NCBI RefSeq assembly: GCF_000153285.1
Contig: NZ_CH724168.1
Coordinates: forward strand, 1,916,110-1,980,109
Direction: 5' to 3'
DNA from: Synechococcus sp. WH 7805
GTDB taxonomy: Bacteria > Cyanobacteriota > Cyanobacteriia > PCC-6307 > Cyanobiaceae
DNA length: 64,000 nt
Of this stretch, positions 52,577 through 62,380 are shown piece by piece (within the stretch, counting starts at the first letter, position 1; each line of letters begins with the position of its first letter). The notes under the pieces are model-generated. The model had not been told where the DNA came from and did no database searches. It saw nothing but the letters and a program-made list of their open reading frames with translations. The position numbers and the translations under genes were made by a program.

Positions 52577-54349
52577 ATGCTGCGCATCGCCCAGGCCCTT
52601 GAAACCCAGTTGCGCGATGCGATGCAGCGGGCCCTCCCTGAAGCGGATGCGGGGCTGGATCCCCAGCTGGTCGCCGCCAGCAAGCCGGAGTTCGGCGATT
52701 TTCAGGCCAACGGTGCCCTCCCCCTGGCCAAGCCCTTGAAGCAGGCCCCACGGCAGATCGCCACGGCGATTGTGGAGCAGCTGCAGGCGGATCCCGCCTT
52801 CACGGACCTGTGTTTAGAGCCTCAGATCGCTGGCCCAGGTTTTATCAACCTCACGATTCGCCCTGAGCGGCTGGCGGCCGAGGTGTCGGCTCGGCTTGGG
52901 GACGAACGGTTGGGGGTGCCGGCGGTGGTGAACGAGGCACCGGTGGTGGTGGATTTTTCCAGCCCCAACATCGCCAAGGAGATGCATGTGGGGCACCTGC
53001 GCTCCACGATCATTGGCGATTCTCTGGCGAGGGTGCTGGAGTTCCGCGGCCATCCGGTGCTGCGCCTCAATCACGTGGGCGATTGGGGCACCCAGTTCGG
53101 CATGTTGATCACCCACCTCAAGCAGGTGGCGCCGGAAGCTTTGGAGACTGCCGATGCGGTGGATCTCGGTGATCTGGTGGCCTTCTACCGCGAGGCCAAG
53201 AAGCGTTTCGATGAGGATGAAGCCTTCCAGTTCACCTCCCGTGAGGAGGTGGTGAAGCTGCAGGGTGGCGATCCGGTGTCGCTCAAGGCCTGGGGCCTGC
53301 TCTGCGATCAGTCGCGGCGCGAGTTCCAGAAGATCTACGACCGGCTCGATATTCGCCTCAGCGAACGCGGTGAATCGTTTTACAACCCTTTCCTGCCGGC
53401 GGTGATTGATGGGCTGAAGGACGCTGAGCTGTTGGTCACCGACGACGGTGCGGAGTGTGTGTTCCTCGAAGGTGTGCAGGGCAAGGACGGCAATCCCCTG
53501 CCAGTGATCGTGCGCAAGAGTGATGGAGGCTTCAACTACGCCACCACCGATCTGGCGGCGATTCGCTACCGCTTTGGAGCGGTTCCCGATGGTGACGGCG
53601 CTCGCCGGGTGATCTATGTGACCGATGCCGGCCAGGCGAATCACTTCGCTGGGGTGTTCCAGGTGGCCACACGGGCCGGCTGGATTCCTGACGGCGCTCG
53701 CCTCGAGCACGTGCCCTTTGGTCTGGTGCAGGGAGAGGACGGCAAGAAGCTCAAGACCCGCTCCGGTGACACGGTGCGTCTGCGGGATCTGCTCGATGAA
53801 GCCGTGGAGCGGGCCGAAGCCGACCTGCGCTCACGTCTGAAGGCGGAGGAGCGCAGCGAGTCGGAGGAGTTCATTCACCACGTTGCCGCCACCGTCGGTT
53901 TGGCGGCCGTGAAATACGCCGACCTCAGTCAGAACCGAATCACGAATTACCAGTTCTCCTTCGATCGGATGCTGGCGTTGCAGGGCAATACGGCGCCCTA
54001 TCTCCTGTATGCCGTGGTGCGCATCGCCGGGATTGCTCGCAAGGGGGGTGACCTGGAGGTGTCGACGGCACAGCTGCAGTTCAGCGAGCCCCAGGAGTGG
54101 GCCCTGGTGCGGGAGCTGCTCAAGTTCGATGTGGTGATTGCCGAGGTGGAGGAAGAGCTCTTGCCCAACCGCCTCTGCAGCTACCTGTTCGAGCTCAGCC
54201 AGGTGTTCAACCGCTTCTATGACCAGGTGCCGGTGCTCAAGGCCGAGTCAGAGGCTCTCCCCTCAAGGCTGGCGCTTTGCAGGCTCACTGCCGACACGCT
54301 CAAAGCAGGCCTCGGCTTGCTGGGGATTCCCAGCCTGGAACGGATGTGA
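52577..54349 (+). CDS. argS: Arginyl-tRNA synthetase
   Basis: About 590 aa from ATG 52577 ([12 protein letters not shown]); an in-frame GTG at 52550 would add nine residues. It has the N-terminal tRNA-recognition domain ([16 protein letters not shown]), the class I signature [17 protein letters not shown] (HVGH = HIGH), and [17 protein letters not shown] as the KMSKS-equivalent loop. The C-terminal DALR anticodon-binding domain ends [16 protein letters not shown] through LGIPSLERM. Confidence 0.97.
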
Positions 54350-55341
54350 CTGGGCCCAGCATCCCACGCCTTCTGCTGCTCGGCACCGGTGGCACCATCG
54401 CCGGTACGGCTCCTGAGTCCACCCAGCTGAATCGTTACGCCGCGGGGGTGATCGGTGCTGAGGCGTTGTTGACAACTCTGCCTCAGTTGAATCGGCTCGC
54501 CGAGATCCAGGTGGAGCAGATCACCAATGTCGACAGCGCTGACCTTGGCTTCAACCACTGGCGCGATCTGGTGAGTCGTCTGAGGCAGATCCTGGCTGAG
54601 GATCCAGGTTTGGTTGGCGTGGTGATCACCCATGGCACCAACACGCTTGAAGAAACCGCCTGGTTGCTGCAGCTTCTTATTGATGATCCCCGGCCGGTGG
54701 TTTTGGTGGGAGCGATGCGGCCTGCGTCCGCTCTCAGTGCCGATGGCCCCCTCAACCTCTACCAGGCCGTGCAGGTGGCCTGCAGTGCTGATTCTCGCGG
54801 TCGCGGCGTGATGGTGGTGATGGATGGCCAGATCCACAGTGCCCGTGATGTTGCGAAACGCGCCACGCAGGGAGTCGGTGCTTTTCACAGTGCAACACGA
54901 GGCCCCCTGGGTTGGGTCGATGATTTCGGTGTTCATCTGTCTGGAGTGGAACGGAGCGCGTCGGTTCCTTTTGCTGGTCTGTCGCTTCCGACGATCTGGC
55001 CTCAGGTGGTGATCCTGCACGGATGCGTGCAACCGTCTGAAGCGTTGATTCCAGCGTTGCTGTCGGCTGGGGTGGAGGGCCTGGTGTTTACCGGGACCGG
55101 CGCTGGGCAATTGTCAGCAGTCGAACGGAACGCGCTTGCGCAATGGCAGGGTCCTCGGCCTCTCATGCTTCGTGCGAACCGTTGCGGGATGGGGCCTGTG
55201 CACCGCTGTGAGGATCACGCGCGGCTTGGTCTGCTGCCAGCGGGTGATCTCAGTCCCCAGAAAGCGCGGGTGCTGCTACTGCTGGCGCTGATCAACGGGG
55301 ATGACCGGAACACGCTGGCTTCTCGACTCATGGTTGTTTGA
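54346..55341 (+). CDS. L-asparaginase (AnsA/AnsB type)
   Basis: 331 aa from GTG 54346, which overlaps the argS stop (GTGA), so translation is coupled. Hydrolyses asparagine to aspartate and ammonia. Visible are [14 protein letters not shown] with the first catalytic Thr, [14 protein letters not shown] with the second, and [17 protein letters not shown] with the conserved RP and SADGP. In the second motif the Asp of the E. coli enzyme is Asn, as in a subset of homologues. No signal peptide is evident, so it is cytoplasmic. Confidence 0.92.
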
Positions 55342-55371: not shown

Positions 55372-56574
55372 CTACCGAGTTGATGGATTGGTGGACGTTT
55401 TTTGCCAGCTTGCTTCCAGCCTGGCTGTGTCGCCTTCATAGTTCAGTCTTGATCATGCAATGTTGATGGCTTGTTTCGTTGTCGGATCGAGATTGGCTCC
55501 AAAGATGAAGGCTTGTGGGGTTTTGTTTGGCATCTCGAGGGAGATCCAATAGTTGTCGGGTTCGTCCACGTTTTGAAGGATCTGCGTTAGAACCGAAACA
55601 TCAGAAACGGTGTGATTTGCAAGTCCGGAGTCGAGCGCTTCGGACAGTGCTCCTTTGCGTTCGGTGGCGACAATGCCGCTGTGGCTTGCTTGATCGAGAT
55701 TGTGGATTTCTACCTGATTTAACAACCAATCATGCATTTTTGTGCCTGCGTTGACGGCGACACCTTCCGATAAAATTTTATTCAAATACGATTTGTTGAT
55801 ATTGTTGGCGTTCATCGGTTTGCGGTCTTCAAAAATCAACGCAGCGGTCGTGCCAACGAGAATGGAAAGAAACAGAATTCGGATCCCGCTCGCAAGCACG
55901 ATCAGGGCATGAGCACGTTGATTTTGGTGCAGGAGTTTGTCGACTCCGCTGCTGAGCAGAAGCATGATCCAGGCCTTGGTGAAGCGGGTCGACGGTTTGC
56001 CGCTGAATCCACTCATCCCATCAAAATTTTTCTCCAGAGAAGCAACGCCTAGAGCCGACATTTCACTGATGACAAGCAGGGTAATCAGCGACGTTTTGAT
56101 GATTGTGTCTTAAAGGAGCTGTGTGCCAATCCCGATTTTCAGGGAATTAATTTTTCGGCTCAGCATGCCGAGGCTGTCGCGGGTGTAGGGGACAGAGAAT
56201 TCAACGAGCTCGAGTCGCTCGGGTGTGATTTTGTGGCAGGAGGCGATCAGGTCAACTGAGCCAAAGGCTGCGGCATCGACCGCTTGGCTGAAGGTGGGCA
56301 GCGAGACAATGGTGTATGGCCTGTTGATGTTCTCGGCGACACGACGCCAGACATCAATGGATAAACCTTCGTAGTTGTTGTTCGCTTCGTCAGAGCAGGG
56401 CAGATAGTTGTCAACTGTCCCAACCAGAAGATGCTCAGATGAATCAGTCGTTAACCCCTCTGCTTTGAGGGCTCCTGTTGAAACAGTGGCTGCGAGCCCT
56501 AGCACCAGTCCCACGCCGGTGAACAGTCTCTGCAGTAGCTGATTCCGATGCATACCGTTTGCTGTTGATTTCAT
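55372..56574 (-). pseudogene. GluR0-like ionotropic receptor channel broken by two in-frame stops
   Basis: In one unbroken frame from ATG 56574 to TAG 55372-55374 (400 codons, close to the 397 aa of Synechocystis GluR0) there are two stops: TAA 56110-56112 and TGA 55453-55455. N-terminal signal (LVLGLAATVSTGA), ligand-binding half S1 (LLVGTVDNYLPCSDEANNNYEG, ITPERLELVEFSVPY), then the TAA. Directly after it comes helix M1 (IIKTSLITLLVIS), a pore region, helix M2 (ALIVLASGIRILFLSILVG), and S2. The TGA splits the end of S2: INIA, stop, SRLNYEGDTARLEASW, a typical binding-protein end. CAA to TAA and CGA to TGA would each need one C-to-T change. The pore region (AWIMLLLSSGVDK) lacks the K-channel TVGYG. 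Its ATG overlaps the stop of the PEP-mutase-like gene (ATGA). Confidence 0.82.
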
Positions 56575-57461
56575 CCCCCCATGGCGTTGTCGGCTTCAAA
56601 TCCAACCAGTGCTTTCAGTTCCTGAAAGCTGAGCATCGTCTCAGGAGTGTTGCCAGCTTTGAGGTCAGCCAGTGCTTTTCGCATCGCGAAGGCTGCCGTT
56701 GACAGCAGGGTGAGGGGGTAGGCCACCAGATCAAAGCCCATGGCACCCAGCCGATCGGGTTTCAGAAGCGGCGTGATGCCTCCTTCGAGCATGTTGGCCA
56801 TGTGCAGACCGGGCACCTCCTGGCAAAACCTGAGCATTTCCTGCTCGCTGCGGGGGGCCTCAAGAAACAGCACATCGGCGCCGAGTTGAGCGAAGGCTTT
56901 CAGACGCCAGAGTGCTTCCTCGAGGGCCCCTGTCTCGCCTTGGCTTTCATCCATGGCGGAGCGGGCATCCGTCCGCGCCACGATCACCAGATCGGCTCCC
57001 TGATTGCGGGCCTCCACCGCTGCATGGATCCTCGCGATCGCAGTGTCGCGATCGACCACTTCCTTCACGCCAGTGTGCCCGCAACGCTTCGGGGCTACCT
57101 GGTCTTCCAGCATGATTCCGCCGAACCCAGCTTTGGCGAACTGGTGCATGGTGCGTTGCACGTTGGCGGCATTGCCATGGCCTGTGTCGCCGTCACCAAT
57201 CACCGGGATCGACACGGCATCGCAGATCGAGCGTCCTTGATCGAGCATCTCCGTCACCGTCAGAAGACCGGTGTCGGGCAGTCCGGCGCGGGCGGCAGCC
57301 ACGGAGAACCCGCTCATAAAGGTGAGCGGACAGCCGGCTTGCTCCACCAGACGTGCTGACAGGGCATCAAAGCAGCAGGGCATGACGTGGCAGGTGTTTT
57401 GGCGGAGTAGAGCTCGTAGGCGATCGGCCGCACCGGGTTGTGGGGGCATGGCAGCGGTCAT
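56571..57461 (-). CDS. PEP mutase/isocitrate lyase family protein
   Basis: 296 aa TIM barrel of the isocitrate lyase/PEP mutase superfamily. Metal-binding GDGDTGHGN, active-site loop [11 protein letters not shown] (KRCGH signature, near residue 125) and VIVARTDAR. Related enzymes include methylisocitrate lyase, oxaloacetate decarboxylases and dimethylmalate lyase; the exact substrate cannot be told. It sits between selO (upstream) and the broken channel gene (downstream), overlapping each by 4 bp (ATGA), so the three form one operon. Confidence 0.88.
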
Positions 57462-59137
57462 GAGGAGCAGCTGTAGTGAGAAATTCCACCGGCATTGAAC
57501 AGCTCACGCGGTCGCAGCTGGCCGTATGTCGACAGAACGGCGTCTGATGGGTCGTCGTAGGGGTTGCTGAACACCTGCTGCAGCTCATGGATGAGGCTCA
57601 TGTCTCCGAGCTCCGCTCGCTGGTAGGCCGGCGCGACCAGCCACTCGCGCCAGGTGATGGCGGGATTCACCTGCTGCATCGCTGCCGACGTCTCGCTGAG
57701 ATTGCCTTGGGCTTCCAGGCTGCTGCGCCAGTGACCCAGCCAGCCCTGCCATCGGCCGGCGAGCTCGTCCGGGCAGGGCTGGTAGAAGCTCGGAGTCAGC
57801 TCGGAGACAGCTCTGGGCAGCGTCGACAGAAGGCGGAAGGCCTTGCAGTAGTCAGCTCCGGTTGTTGCCAGCAGCTGCAACAGTTCCGTCACCAGGGTGT
57901 CGTCGTAGGCCGGCAATCCGATTTTGCTGGCCCACATCGCCTCCATCTTCTGCTGCATCACTGCAGCAAAGCCGTCATGGAGTGCATCGAGCTCCTCCTG
58001 GGCTTGTCGATCGCCATCCAGCAGCGTGCGCAGAGATGACCAGAACATTTTGAAGTTTGTTTCCGCGGCCACGGGCTGGTTGAAGAAACAGAAGTGGGTC
58101 CCACCACCGGTCCAGGGTTGGAAGCGGGGATCGAACAGTTCGCAGAAACCGAAGGGTCCGTAGTCGAGGGTGTAACCGCCGGCGGCACAGTTGTCGCTGT
58201 TGAAGTTGCCCTGGCAGTAGCCGACGCGCATCCAGTGGGCCACTAGTGATGTGAGCCGTTCTCGGAAGAGGTGGGCGAGCGCGATGACCTGTTTGTGGAA
58301 TGGCTCGGCTGGATCAATTGCGGGCCTGTAGTTCCTCTCGATCAGGTGCTGCACGATCAGCTGCAGCTCCTGGCGTGCTTCGGGGTGGGCGTCGTTGCGA
58401 GCCCGGCGTGCGAACAGCTCGATCTGTCCGACCCGCAAGAAGGAGGGGGCTACGCGCGTGCAGATCGCGGCTGCGTTTTGCACCATTATGTCTGGATCGA
58501 AGGAGCGTGAGTTCTCCGAGTACCAGGGTCTGGCAACCGTTTCCGATTGGGAGACGTAAAGGCTCAGTGAGCGGGAGGTGGGCACGCCGAGGGCATGCAT
58601 GAACTCTTGTGCCAGGAATTCGCGCACACTGGAGCGCAGAACAGCGCGTCCATCCGCACCGCGGCAGTAGGGCGTCGGCCCGCCGCCCTTGAGTTGCATC
58701 TCCCAGCGCTGGTTTTTGAACACTCCCTCAAAGACGGAGATGGCCCGCCCGTCGCCATAGCCGTTGCCGGTTCCAAACGGACACTGCTGGATGTATTCGG
58801 TGCCATAGATCGACAGGGCATAGCCGGTAGCCCAGCCCCAGGGATGCATGGGATCGGTGCTTGCTGACAGGTCTCCAGAGAACATTCTCTGAAAGGCGTC
58901 GTCATGAACCAACGCCTCACTCAGCCCAAGCTCATCGAACAGGACAGAACTGTGGGCGACGTAGGCGGGATCGGGGAGCGGTGTCGGCCTCACTGGCACG
59001 TAGTGACCCGATGTCACCTGCCGAGGTCGCAAATCGACTCCGTCTGTCGTTGCCTGTGGATCCGCCTTCAGCTGCTCTAACAAGGAATAGTCGACCCGCT
59101 GCCTGAACTCCTCAAAGCTGTTTGCTGTTGTGGGCAT
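57458..59137 (-). CDS. selO: Protein adenylyltransferase SelO
   Basis: 559 aa pseudokinase-fold protein that AMPylates Ser/Thr/Tyr (YdiU/SelO family). It has the [20 protein letters not shown] region, [20 protein letters not shown] with metal-binding Asn/Asp and the catalytic DYGPFGF, and a C-terminal YSCSS tail (Cys in place of selenocysteine, typical of bacteria). ATG at 59137. First gene of the selO/PEP-mutase/channel operon. The family is linked to redox control of enzymes. Confidence 0.93.
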
Positions 59138-59324: not shown

Positions 59325-60329
59325 ATGGCGATTCTCGCCAACAATCCCCCCTTCACTAATCAAGCCGACCAAAGAAGATCCTCGAATGGATGGCGGATCC
59401 TGAGAAACATTAGTGCGGAGGCTGGTAATGATTTCATTGAAGGTAGACAGCGTCTGAGCTCCAACAGCAGCGGCATTGGGATTGAGATTTTTGGCAGCGT
59501 TTTGGATACAGAGTTTGGGAATGACACTGTTAAGGGCATTGCTCGCGCGAAAAATGGTGTGGCTACTGGCATTGATATTTTTGGAAAAACCCTGATCAAT
59601 GGGAATGAGATCGGTGATAGTGCGATTGATTCCGGAGCTGATAACGACAAAGTGATCGGGCGAGGTAACAGTAGGACTGGAATTGCTTATGGTATTGAGA
59701 TCAATGGCGGCAAGATCGATTCTGGTCTTGCTAATGACAGGATTACAGGCAATGGAAAAAGTAGGAGTGGTGATGCCTATGGCATCTCGCTGAATGGCAG
59801 TAATGCCGAAACGAAAATCGATACCGGACTTGGCAATGACAGTGTTGTAGGCAAGGCAAGAAGTCGCAGCGGCAATGCCTTTGGTATCAACAACTTGAGG
59901 AATAGCACCATTGATACTGGAGATGGTGATGACACCGTTACTGGTGTTGCTTCAAGTGACACTGGTGCAGCTGTCGGTATCTTCAACAATGGTGTGATCG
60001 ATGGCGGCGCAGGCGATGATGTGTTTGATGCGTTAACAGGTGGTTGGGGTGGCAACGGTCGTGCTGATCTTGGCAGTGGCAATGACACTGTTAGAGGTTT
60101 TGGCAGCGGCACCTTTGATGGCGGTGTCGGATTCGATACACTTGTTTTCAACGCTGGCACTTACAACATTGCAAGAGTGGGAAGCCAGTTGGATCGCTTT
60201 GAAATAACACTTTCCTCTCTTCAAAATAGTCCGGTCATGACTGTCACTGAATTTGAATTTTTCGGGGAAGGTGATCAGCAGACGTCATTTGCGAGTGCTG
60301 TTGCTGCCGGTCAAATTACTTTTATCTAA
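59325..60329 (+). CDS. RTX-like repeat protein, copy 1 (334 aa)
   Basis: Tandem repeats of ~35 aa, each with an RTX-like half nonapeptide (GFGNDTVKG in degenerate forms such as GLGNDSVVGKA, GDGDDTVTGVA) and a GI(E/D)IFG strand. The family is Ca-binding beta-roll in type. The C-terminal ~100 residues (GAGDDVFDALTGGWGG, TVTEFEFFGEGDQQTSF, AAGQITFI) are well conserved with the paralogue at 60875. No signal peptide. Secretion by a type I system is inferred. A possible -10 (TACAAT, 59294-59299) lies 26 bp before the ATG, with no clear -35 and no strong ribosome site. Confidence 0.8.
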   Translation: MAILANNPPFTNQADQRRSSNGWRILRNISAEAGNDFIEGRQRLSSNSSGIGIEIFGSVLDTEFGNDTVKGIARAKNGVATGIDIFGKTLINGNEIGDSAIDSGADNDKVIGRGNSRTGIAYGIEINGGKIDSGLANDRITGNGKSRSGDAYGISLNGSNAETKIDTGLGNDSVVGKARSRSGNAFGINNLRNSTIDTGDGDDTVTGVASSDTGAAVGIFNNGVIDGGAGDDVFDALTGGWGGNGRADLGSGNDTVRGFGSGTFDGGVGFDTLVFNAGTYNIARVGSQLDRFEITLSSLQNSPVMTVTEFEFFGEGDQQTSFASAVAAGQITFI

Positions 60330-60874: not shown

Positions 60875-62380
60875 ATGGCTTTTCTGACTAATGAGCCCTC
60901 CTTCACTAATCGGGAAGACGTAAGAATTTCTTTTGATGGCTGGATTATTTCGTCTGGCGTAGGCGTTGATGCTTTGAGTGGTGGTGACATTGTTGAAGGT
61001 CTGGCAGCATCTGGCGACGGCGATGCTGCTGGAATCTTTATTTCCAGTGGGGCTCTAGATGCAGGCAATGGCCGTGACACCATTCAAGGCAAGGGCACCA
61101 CTGCAGAAGGCGCAGTCACTGGTATCGAGATTATCCTCGGCGGCACTTTGCAAGCCGGTTTGGGTGACGACAATATTCAAGGCACGGCCACCACGAACCT
61201 CGGGGCTGCTGCTGGTATCGAGATCGTCAGTAGCTCCCTTGATACAGGGTCCGGCAGAGACACGATTGAAGGTAAATCCACAACTGGCGAGGGGGCTGCT
61301 GCTGGTATCGAGATCGTCAACGGCACGCTGAATACAGGATTGGGCATTGATTCAATCAAAGGTAGGGCCACCACTGGCGACGGCGCAGTCTCTGGCGTTG
61401 AAGTCACCCTCGACGGCACCCTTGACACAGGCTTTGGTAATGACACTGTTCAAGGGAGAGCCAGCACGGCCGTTGGAGCGGCTGCTGGTATCGATATCTT
61501 TAGGGGTGCTCTTGATACAGGCTTAGGTAATGACACAATTGCAGGAAAAGCCATTTCAGGTGATGGCGCCGTTGCTGGTATCGAAGTTTTCCGTGGCACC
61601 CTCAATACAGGTTTCGGCATCGATACCTTTGACGGCCAAGCCACCACGGCCGTCGGTCCTGCCGCTGGTATCGAGATCGTCCGAAGCACCTTGGATACTG
61701 GGTTAGGAGCTGACATTATCCAAGGCAAGGGCACCACTGTTGATGGCGCGGCCTCTGGGGTAGAGATCGCTCGTGGCACCTTGAAGACACGGGCTGGTGG
61801 GGACATGATCATTGGCGACGCTGAAGGTCGTCGCGTTGCCTATGGAATCCTTAACTTCAACAACGGCGCTTTGATTGCTGGTGCTGGCGATGACACCATC
61901 ACAGGCAATGCAGAAGCGCGTCGCTTTGCCTTTGGCATCTTCAACGACAGCACCAGCACCATAAAAACTGGATCTGGTAATGATGCAATCACTGGTACTG
62001 CCTCCAATGCCAAAAGAGAGGCCTTTGGAATCTTCAATGATGGCGTTATTGATGGTGGCGGTGGCAACGATGTGTTTGATGCCCTCAAGGATGGATGGGG
62101 TGGTGGCGGTACGGTTGATTTGGGCAGAGGAGATGATGTCCTAAGAGGTTTTGGTAGCGGTACCTTTATTGGTGGTAGTGGTTTGGATGCGTTGACTTTT
62201 AGCTCTGGTACTTACAGGATTGAGAATGTTGAGGGGCAGCGCGGGGTCTTTCAGATAACGCTCGATTCCCTTGAGCCAAGCCCTGTTATGAATGTGGTTG
62301 GGTTTGAATTCTTCGGAGAAGGTGATCAGCAGACAAGCTTTGCAGCAGCGGCCTCTGCTGGAGAGATCACATTCGTTTGA
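60875..62380 (+). CDS. RTX-like repeat protein, copy 2 (501 aa)
   Basis: Longer paralogue of the 59325 gene. The N-terminus aligns (MAFLTNEPSFTNREDVR with MAILANNPPFTNQADQR). Its core repeats are regular at ~34 aa, with ASTAVGAAAGIDIFRG and ALDTGLGNDTIAGK type units. After about residue 310 they become degenerate, then the shared C-terminal domain (GNDVFDALKDGWGG, VVGFEFFGEGDQQTSF). It differs from copy 1 mainly by several extra repeat units. No ribosome site is clear at ATG 60875; the 5' region 60641-60874 is AT-rich and held no other gene that I could see. Confidence 0.82.
   Translation: MAFLTNEPSFTNREDVRISFDGWIISSGVGVDALSGGDIVEGLAASGDGDAAGIFISSGALDAGNGRDTIQGKGTTAEGAVTGIEIILGGTLQAGLGDDNIQGTATTNLGAAAGIEIVSSSLDTGSGRDTIEGKSTTGEGAAAGIEIVNGTLNTGLGIDSIKGRATTGDGAVSGVEVTLDGTLDTGFGNDTVQGRASTAVGAAAGIDIFRGALDTGLGNDTIAGKAISGDGAVAGIEVFRGTLNTGFGIDTFDGQATTAVGPAAGIEIVRSTLDTGLGADIIQGKGTTVDGAASGVEIARGTLKTRAGGDMIIGDAEGRRVAYGILNFNNGALIAGAGDDTITGNAEARRFAFGIFNDSTSTIKTGSGNDAITGTASNAKREAFGIFNDGVIDGGGGNDVFDALKDGWGGGGTVDLGRGDDVLRGFGSGTFIGGSGLDALTFSSGTYRIENVEGQRGVFQITLDSLEPSPVMNVVGFEFFGEGDQQTSFAAAASAGEITFV

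Follow-up and report, generated by a model that had tools for sequence, protein, structure and literature searches.

In Synechococcus sp. WH 7805, the third gene of a SelO / PEP-mutase-like / receptor run is very probably a pseudogene of recent origin, derived from a prokaryotic iGluR relative that lacks the K+ filter, and its loss was apparently paralleled in a related Black Sea lineage. The gene lies on the minus strand of the window, that is the whole 64,000-nucleotide stretch of contig NZ_CH724168.1 that was analysed, and the coordinates of its features and neighbours are collected in Table 1. None of the literature titles and abstract openings listed concerned this gene.

Translation of the minus-strand frame gave 400 codons followed by a closing TAG (55374-55372), with exactly two internal stops, TAA and TGA, the frame being otherwise open and without frameshift, as the original prediction had described. 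When seven relatives without internal stops (30-33% identity) were aligned with it, the alignment passed both window stops in one frame, and in tblastn the read-through frame produced single unbroken matches to the same seven (e.g., residues 51-390, 49-390 and 1-390); homology thus resumes after each stop, as had also been claimed, and the coding frame is interrupted relative to its intact homologues. None of the aligned relatives has a stop at either of the two positions. Because residues 47-391 of the read-through frame gave a match at E 2.6e-70, and Pfam SBP_bac_3 was recovered at E 9e-16 on the part before the first stop alone (residues 49-143), we take the frame to be the remnant of a real gene and not a chance reading. 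Its native 3' end is less sure, since the copy in the closest relative (see below) stops at codon 391 and the relatives, where followed to their ends, terminate 2-10 residues past the last conserved tryptophan (Trp390), a range that includes the 10 residues of the window frame; either the window TAG or the codon-391 stop may be the native one. The reading that the window frame overshoots its true end to reach the TAG was rejected on the same range.

Table 1. Features of the broken gene and of its neighbours (positions in the window; residues and codons numbered in the read-through frame).
Feature	Position	Strand	Basis
iGluR-like gene, broken, read-through frame	55372..56574	-	400 codons; translation and alignment
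N-terminal helix, predicted, signal-peptide-like, residues 9-34	56473..56550	-	AlphaFold2, low confidence here
S1 half of ligand-binding domain and linker, residues 49-154, before the first stop	56113..56430	-	Pfam, PDB match
S1 Arg120	56217-56215	-	ITPERLEL stretch, alignment
In-frame stop TAA, codon 155, directly before M1	56110..56112	-	Translation, model
M1 helix, predicted, residues 157-183	56026..56106	-	AlphaFold2
Pore helix and loop, residues 194-215, ...LLLSSGVDKLL..., without TVGYG	55930..55995	-	AlphaFold2, tree alignment
M2 helix, predicted, residues 219-251	55822..55920	-	AlphaFold2
S2 half of ligand-binding domain, residues 261-395 in the model	55390..55794	-	Alignment, SBP_bac_3, AlphaFold2
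S2 Asp325	55602-55600	-	SDVSVL stretch, alignment
In-frame stop TGA, codon 374, within late S2 helix (364-379)	55453..55455	-	Translation, model
Codon 391, sense in the window, stop in the sister copy	55402..55404	-	DNA alignment
SelO (YdiU), intact, first of the three-gene run	57458..59137	-	ORF, domain searches
PEP mutase / isocitrate-lyase-like gene, intact; 4-base overlap with the start of the broken gene	56571..57461	-	ORF, domain searches
Asparaginase, intact, convergent neighbour; start codon unsettled, ORF list starts at 54277	54355..55341	+	ORF, domain searches

The arrangement S1-M1-P-M2-S2, in which a ligand-binding domain is split by a membrane part, was recognised in the window frame from three sides. 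SBP_bac_3 covers residues 49-391 with the membrane part inside. With moderate confidence (pLDDT 67.6, pTM 0.42, 11-row alignment), AlphaFold2 modelled the read-through frame with, in order, an N-terminal helix (9-34), S1 elements to residue 140, M1 (157-183), a pore helix (194-207), M2 (219-251) and S2 from residue 261. Foldseek matched this model, among the rows printed, with NMDA, AMPA, kainate and delta chains and with one glutamine-binding protein, at E values of about 1e-12 to 2e-11 and low TMq (0.26-0.33). When the profile of the relatives was compared with PDB, the ligand-binding domain of GluR0 (Slr1257) was the best match (E 1.1e-15), with amino-acid-binding ABC transporter proteins close behind, and positions 64-385 of the same profile also matched the GluN2B chain of an NMDA receptor (E 6e-9).

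SelO, the PEP-mutase-like gene and the receptor gene overlap by 4 bases at each junction and the receptor comes last, in agreement with the prediction that it closes an operon whose first two genes are intact. SelO, the PEP mutase, asparaginase and ArgS, which surround the broken gene, are all open, and the last two are adjacent in the window. Divergent from this operon and adjoining it are two plus-strand ORFs (59325-60329 and 60875-62380), both repetitive, Gly/Asp-rich and alike at their N- and C-termini, for which NCBIfam gave no match and Pfam none that passed the cut-off, its one Big_7 match being at E 0.15.

In a search of 31 genomes of the genus, 7, including that of the window, reached E 1e-15 or lower, and the strongest match elsewhere had 36% identity. 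Among 400 family genomes, a draw from a larger group, 80 had a match at the same threshold and a single one was close: contig 52 of genome G357, with 87% identity over residues 182-398 and 83% over residues 41-143. This contig is identical to JADHMX010000109.1, from the metagenome-assembled genome (MAG) Synechococcus sp. BS301-5m-G53 of the Black Sea. A one-pattern scan of genome contigs returned 53 stretches and, from these, 11 confirmed loci; in just one of the 11, that of the MAG, SelO, PEP mutase and asparaginase lie beside the gene (flanks of up to 5 kb, shorter at contig ends). No intact copy at this locus was found in the 400 family genomes or in the one-pattern scan, from which records nearest the window genome may be omitted. 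Around 12 other PEP-mutase loci in the genus, no receptor gene, SelO or asparaginase lay within roughly 1.5 kb, the viral contig scan gave no match, and in the plasmid search the PEP-mutase-like part of the query matched and nothing else.

Besides the window genome and G357, the 400-genome search flagged one stop each in G361, G341, G189, G362 and G298. Four of these were checked as further cases of internal stops (G361/L036, G341/L038, G189/L040 and G362/L049) and rejected: in three the stop lies at the extreme C-terminal end, and G361/L036 has no stop inside the printed match.

The MAG copy, hereafter the sister copy, occupies the same locus with the same neighbours on both sides and has about 85% amino acid identity to the window gene; it differs in its lesions. 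DNA alignment showed identical gene order and an identical ATGA overlap. Relative to the window, the sister copy is without bases 56529-56451 (79), 56194-56149 (46) and 56032 (1), and its codon 342 reads as a stop. A further gap, 55391-55350 (42), takes in the last codons of the window frame together with the closing TAG. The other three gaps amount to 126 bases, which returns the last part to the frame of the start and leaves the segments between out of frame, and the first frameshift leaves an 82-codon ORF from the start. No disabling lesion is common to the two copies. The original prediction had named sister strains with the same stops and conserved sequence beyond them as grounds for a functional split; the one relative compared, a MAG and not a strain of the same species, does not have these stops in common with the window. 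Its codons at both positions are sense codons other than CAA and CGA, the difference from the window being a transversion in each case, so that the proposed origin of each stop by a C-to-T change from CAA or CGA is unsupported against this sister, which need not show the ancestral codons. G357 is a MAG, 79% complete, with 6% contamination and assigned to another genus, so assembly faults may explain part of its lesions.

These lesions bear on whether the window gene could work in pieces, either as the 154-residue S1 fragment or as a 202-residue fragment from an internal ATG (56061..55453). The first fragment does retain the upstream-overlapping start and the S1 domain. However, it would be half of a ligand-binding domain, missing the S2 lobe, which closes over the ligand, and neither fragment boundary is kept in the sister, whose 79-base deletion shifts the frame near the start and whose 1-base deletion and codon-342 stop fall within the second fragment. 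We consider a functional split or truncation very improbable.

A sequencing or assembly error, the gene of the strain being in fact intact, is unlikely, albeit less so. In its favour, just two single-codon breaks interrupt the frame and the pair still shows selection (see below); against it stand two separate nonsense codons in one gene amid open neighbours, a genome in 3 contigs with 99.99% completeness, and the breakage of the same gene by other lesions in a relative. Recent loss of the gene is the reading we retain.

Along the two contigs, identity in 200-base steps lies at 97-100% over SelO and PEP mutase, drops to 89-95% within the receptor gene, and is next 94-96% and finally 75-86% through asparaginase, a pattern that suggests, though it does not prove, recombination around the locus. 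The fall at 56574 (MAG L058:1364-1419) looks as if a recombination tract had ended near the receptor start. Between asparaginase and ArgS, the MAG carries a membrane-protein-like gene (L058:3422-5003, minus strand) in two overlapping frames, as if broken.

The timing of the loss was approached through the differences between the window and sister copies. Over 342 codons (346 less 4, codons at the indels and the four with a stop in either copy being excluded), 18, 16 and 48 differences fall at codon positions 1, 2 and 3 (chi-square p 8e-6), and dN/dS by the Nei-Gojobori method on the indel-free pieces is 0.195 (bootstrap 95% 0.12-0.30; 0.231 on a cruder global alignment). Because the differences are mostly at third positions and dN/dS is 0.195, most of the divergence would have accumulated under purifying selection, each copy having broken late. 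As controls, seven comparisons of intact homologues, which are not independent (three Prochlorococcus pairs, L003-L004, and three with the genome's own other-clade paralogue), gave 0.064-0.196, and the neighbouring asparaginase 0.168. The value of the receptor pair is indistinguishable from those of the intact relatives and so does not by itself point to relaxed constraint; it is the lesions that argue for a pseudogene. The recent loss put forward in the original prediction is supported, the sister being broken by other lesions and the divergence of the pair showing purifying selection.

The same third-position bias, like the homology, persists past both stops, as it would if programmed or conserved readthrough yielded a full-length channel. 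Yet the stops are conserved neither in the sister, whose own frame is shifted, nor in any aligned relative, and a full-length product would require readthrough at two unlike stops, one TAA and one TGA; we give readthrough very little credence. With late pseudogenisation kept as the preferred explanation, the gene would have stayed functional while the two lineages accumulated most of their divergence, and each would then have lost it separately. The ancestral product would be a membrane protein with the order signal peptide-S1-M1-pore loop-M2-S2 and a pore loop without the potassium filter, its translation probably coupled to the upstream gene via the ATGA overlap; while it was intact, its pore would have been gated by an amino acid bound between S1 and S2. 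Translation would now end once the S1 half of the ligand-binding domain is complete, so that no channel would be made.

The pore loop sets this gene apart from the canonical channels. TVGYG or a near variant is absent from it and from all 35 distinct relatives of its group, a count that excludes two MAG fragments (L034) and identical rows, includes L009 by score only, and contains three partial rows (L045, L046 and L053). Among 22 lower-scoring rows, 18 read TVGYGD and L013, L028, L018 and L026 do not; one of the 18 is a canonical gene (L032) that is open elsewhere in the same genome. In a tree of 35 hand-picked rows (the window, 29 noncanonical and 5 canonical), five canonical TVGYGD proteins fall on one side of a 100/100 branch and the window groups with eight noncanonical rows (100/99), finer placement being unsure on account of long branches. 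The designation GluR0-type, as originally given, therefore holds for the S1-M1-P-M2-S2 architecture and fails for the filter.

Two picocyanobacterial iGluR-like clades without TVGYG were noticed, with short G-x-G-like loops (MGSG, MGTG, TGPG and TGEG). The window genome also has an open-frame member of the second clade (G000:C2:1545261-1546376; L031/L033) besides the canonical gene. A canonical GluR0 homologue in another genome of the genus (L013; G023:C1, match 1342223-1342534) is apparently broken too, its open frame of 209 codons ending before the TVGYGD filter with last residues that look frameshifted.

Ger et al. 2010 (PMC2950845) distinguish two groups of prokaryotic iGluR-like proteins: Group 1 has a K+ filter, whereas the P regions of Group 2 are unrecognised. 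GluR0 (Slr1257) of Synechocystis, assigned there to Group 1, has the S1-M1-P-M2-S2 order in common with the window gene, and no PDB sequence matches the window's group better than its ligand-binding domain, ABC amino-acid-binding proteins being close behind. The S1 arginine and the S2 aspartate, which according to the same paper contact glutamate, appear common to both: Arg120 is kept, and Asp325 is kept in the window copy (alignment and our own reading). GluR0 differs in that the window gene is without the TVGYG potassium filter and has two stops. With Group 2, whose P region is unlike any known filter, the window gene has the same topology and an unrecognised P region; by these two features, and not by placement with the published proteins, it fits the description of that group. 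A difference is that 5 of the 11 rows aligned have Asn at the S2 aspartate position, whereas PMC2950845 reports this aspartate as totally conserved in Groups 1 and 2. On the sequence evidence, we regard the gene as a prokaryotic iGluR relative without the K+ filter.

A wider proposal, which we advance tentatively and judge to have somewhat less than an even chance, is that the gene is a relic in a distinct, little-described picocyanobacterial group of ligand-gated pores, in which the filter is a short G-x-G-like loop and not TVGYG; the group would be kept beside a canonical GluR0-type gene and would have been lost in at least two lineages, its intact members being amino-acid-gated channels of non-K+ selectivity or receptors that no longer conduct.

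As a pseudogene, the gene is ordinary in kind. It provides a small, clear case of an accessory receptor lost late, and apparently in parallel, by two related lineages. Of more interest are the noncanonical relatives with open frames, which are present in Prochlorococcus and Synechococcus single-cell genomes (for example the Prochlorococcus gene at L080:4920-6059) and could show what role a glutamate-receptor-like pore lacking a potassium filter has in marine cyanobacteria.
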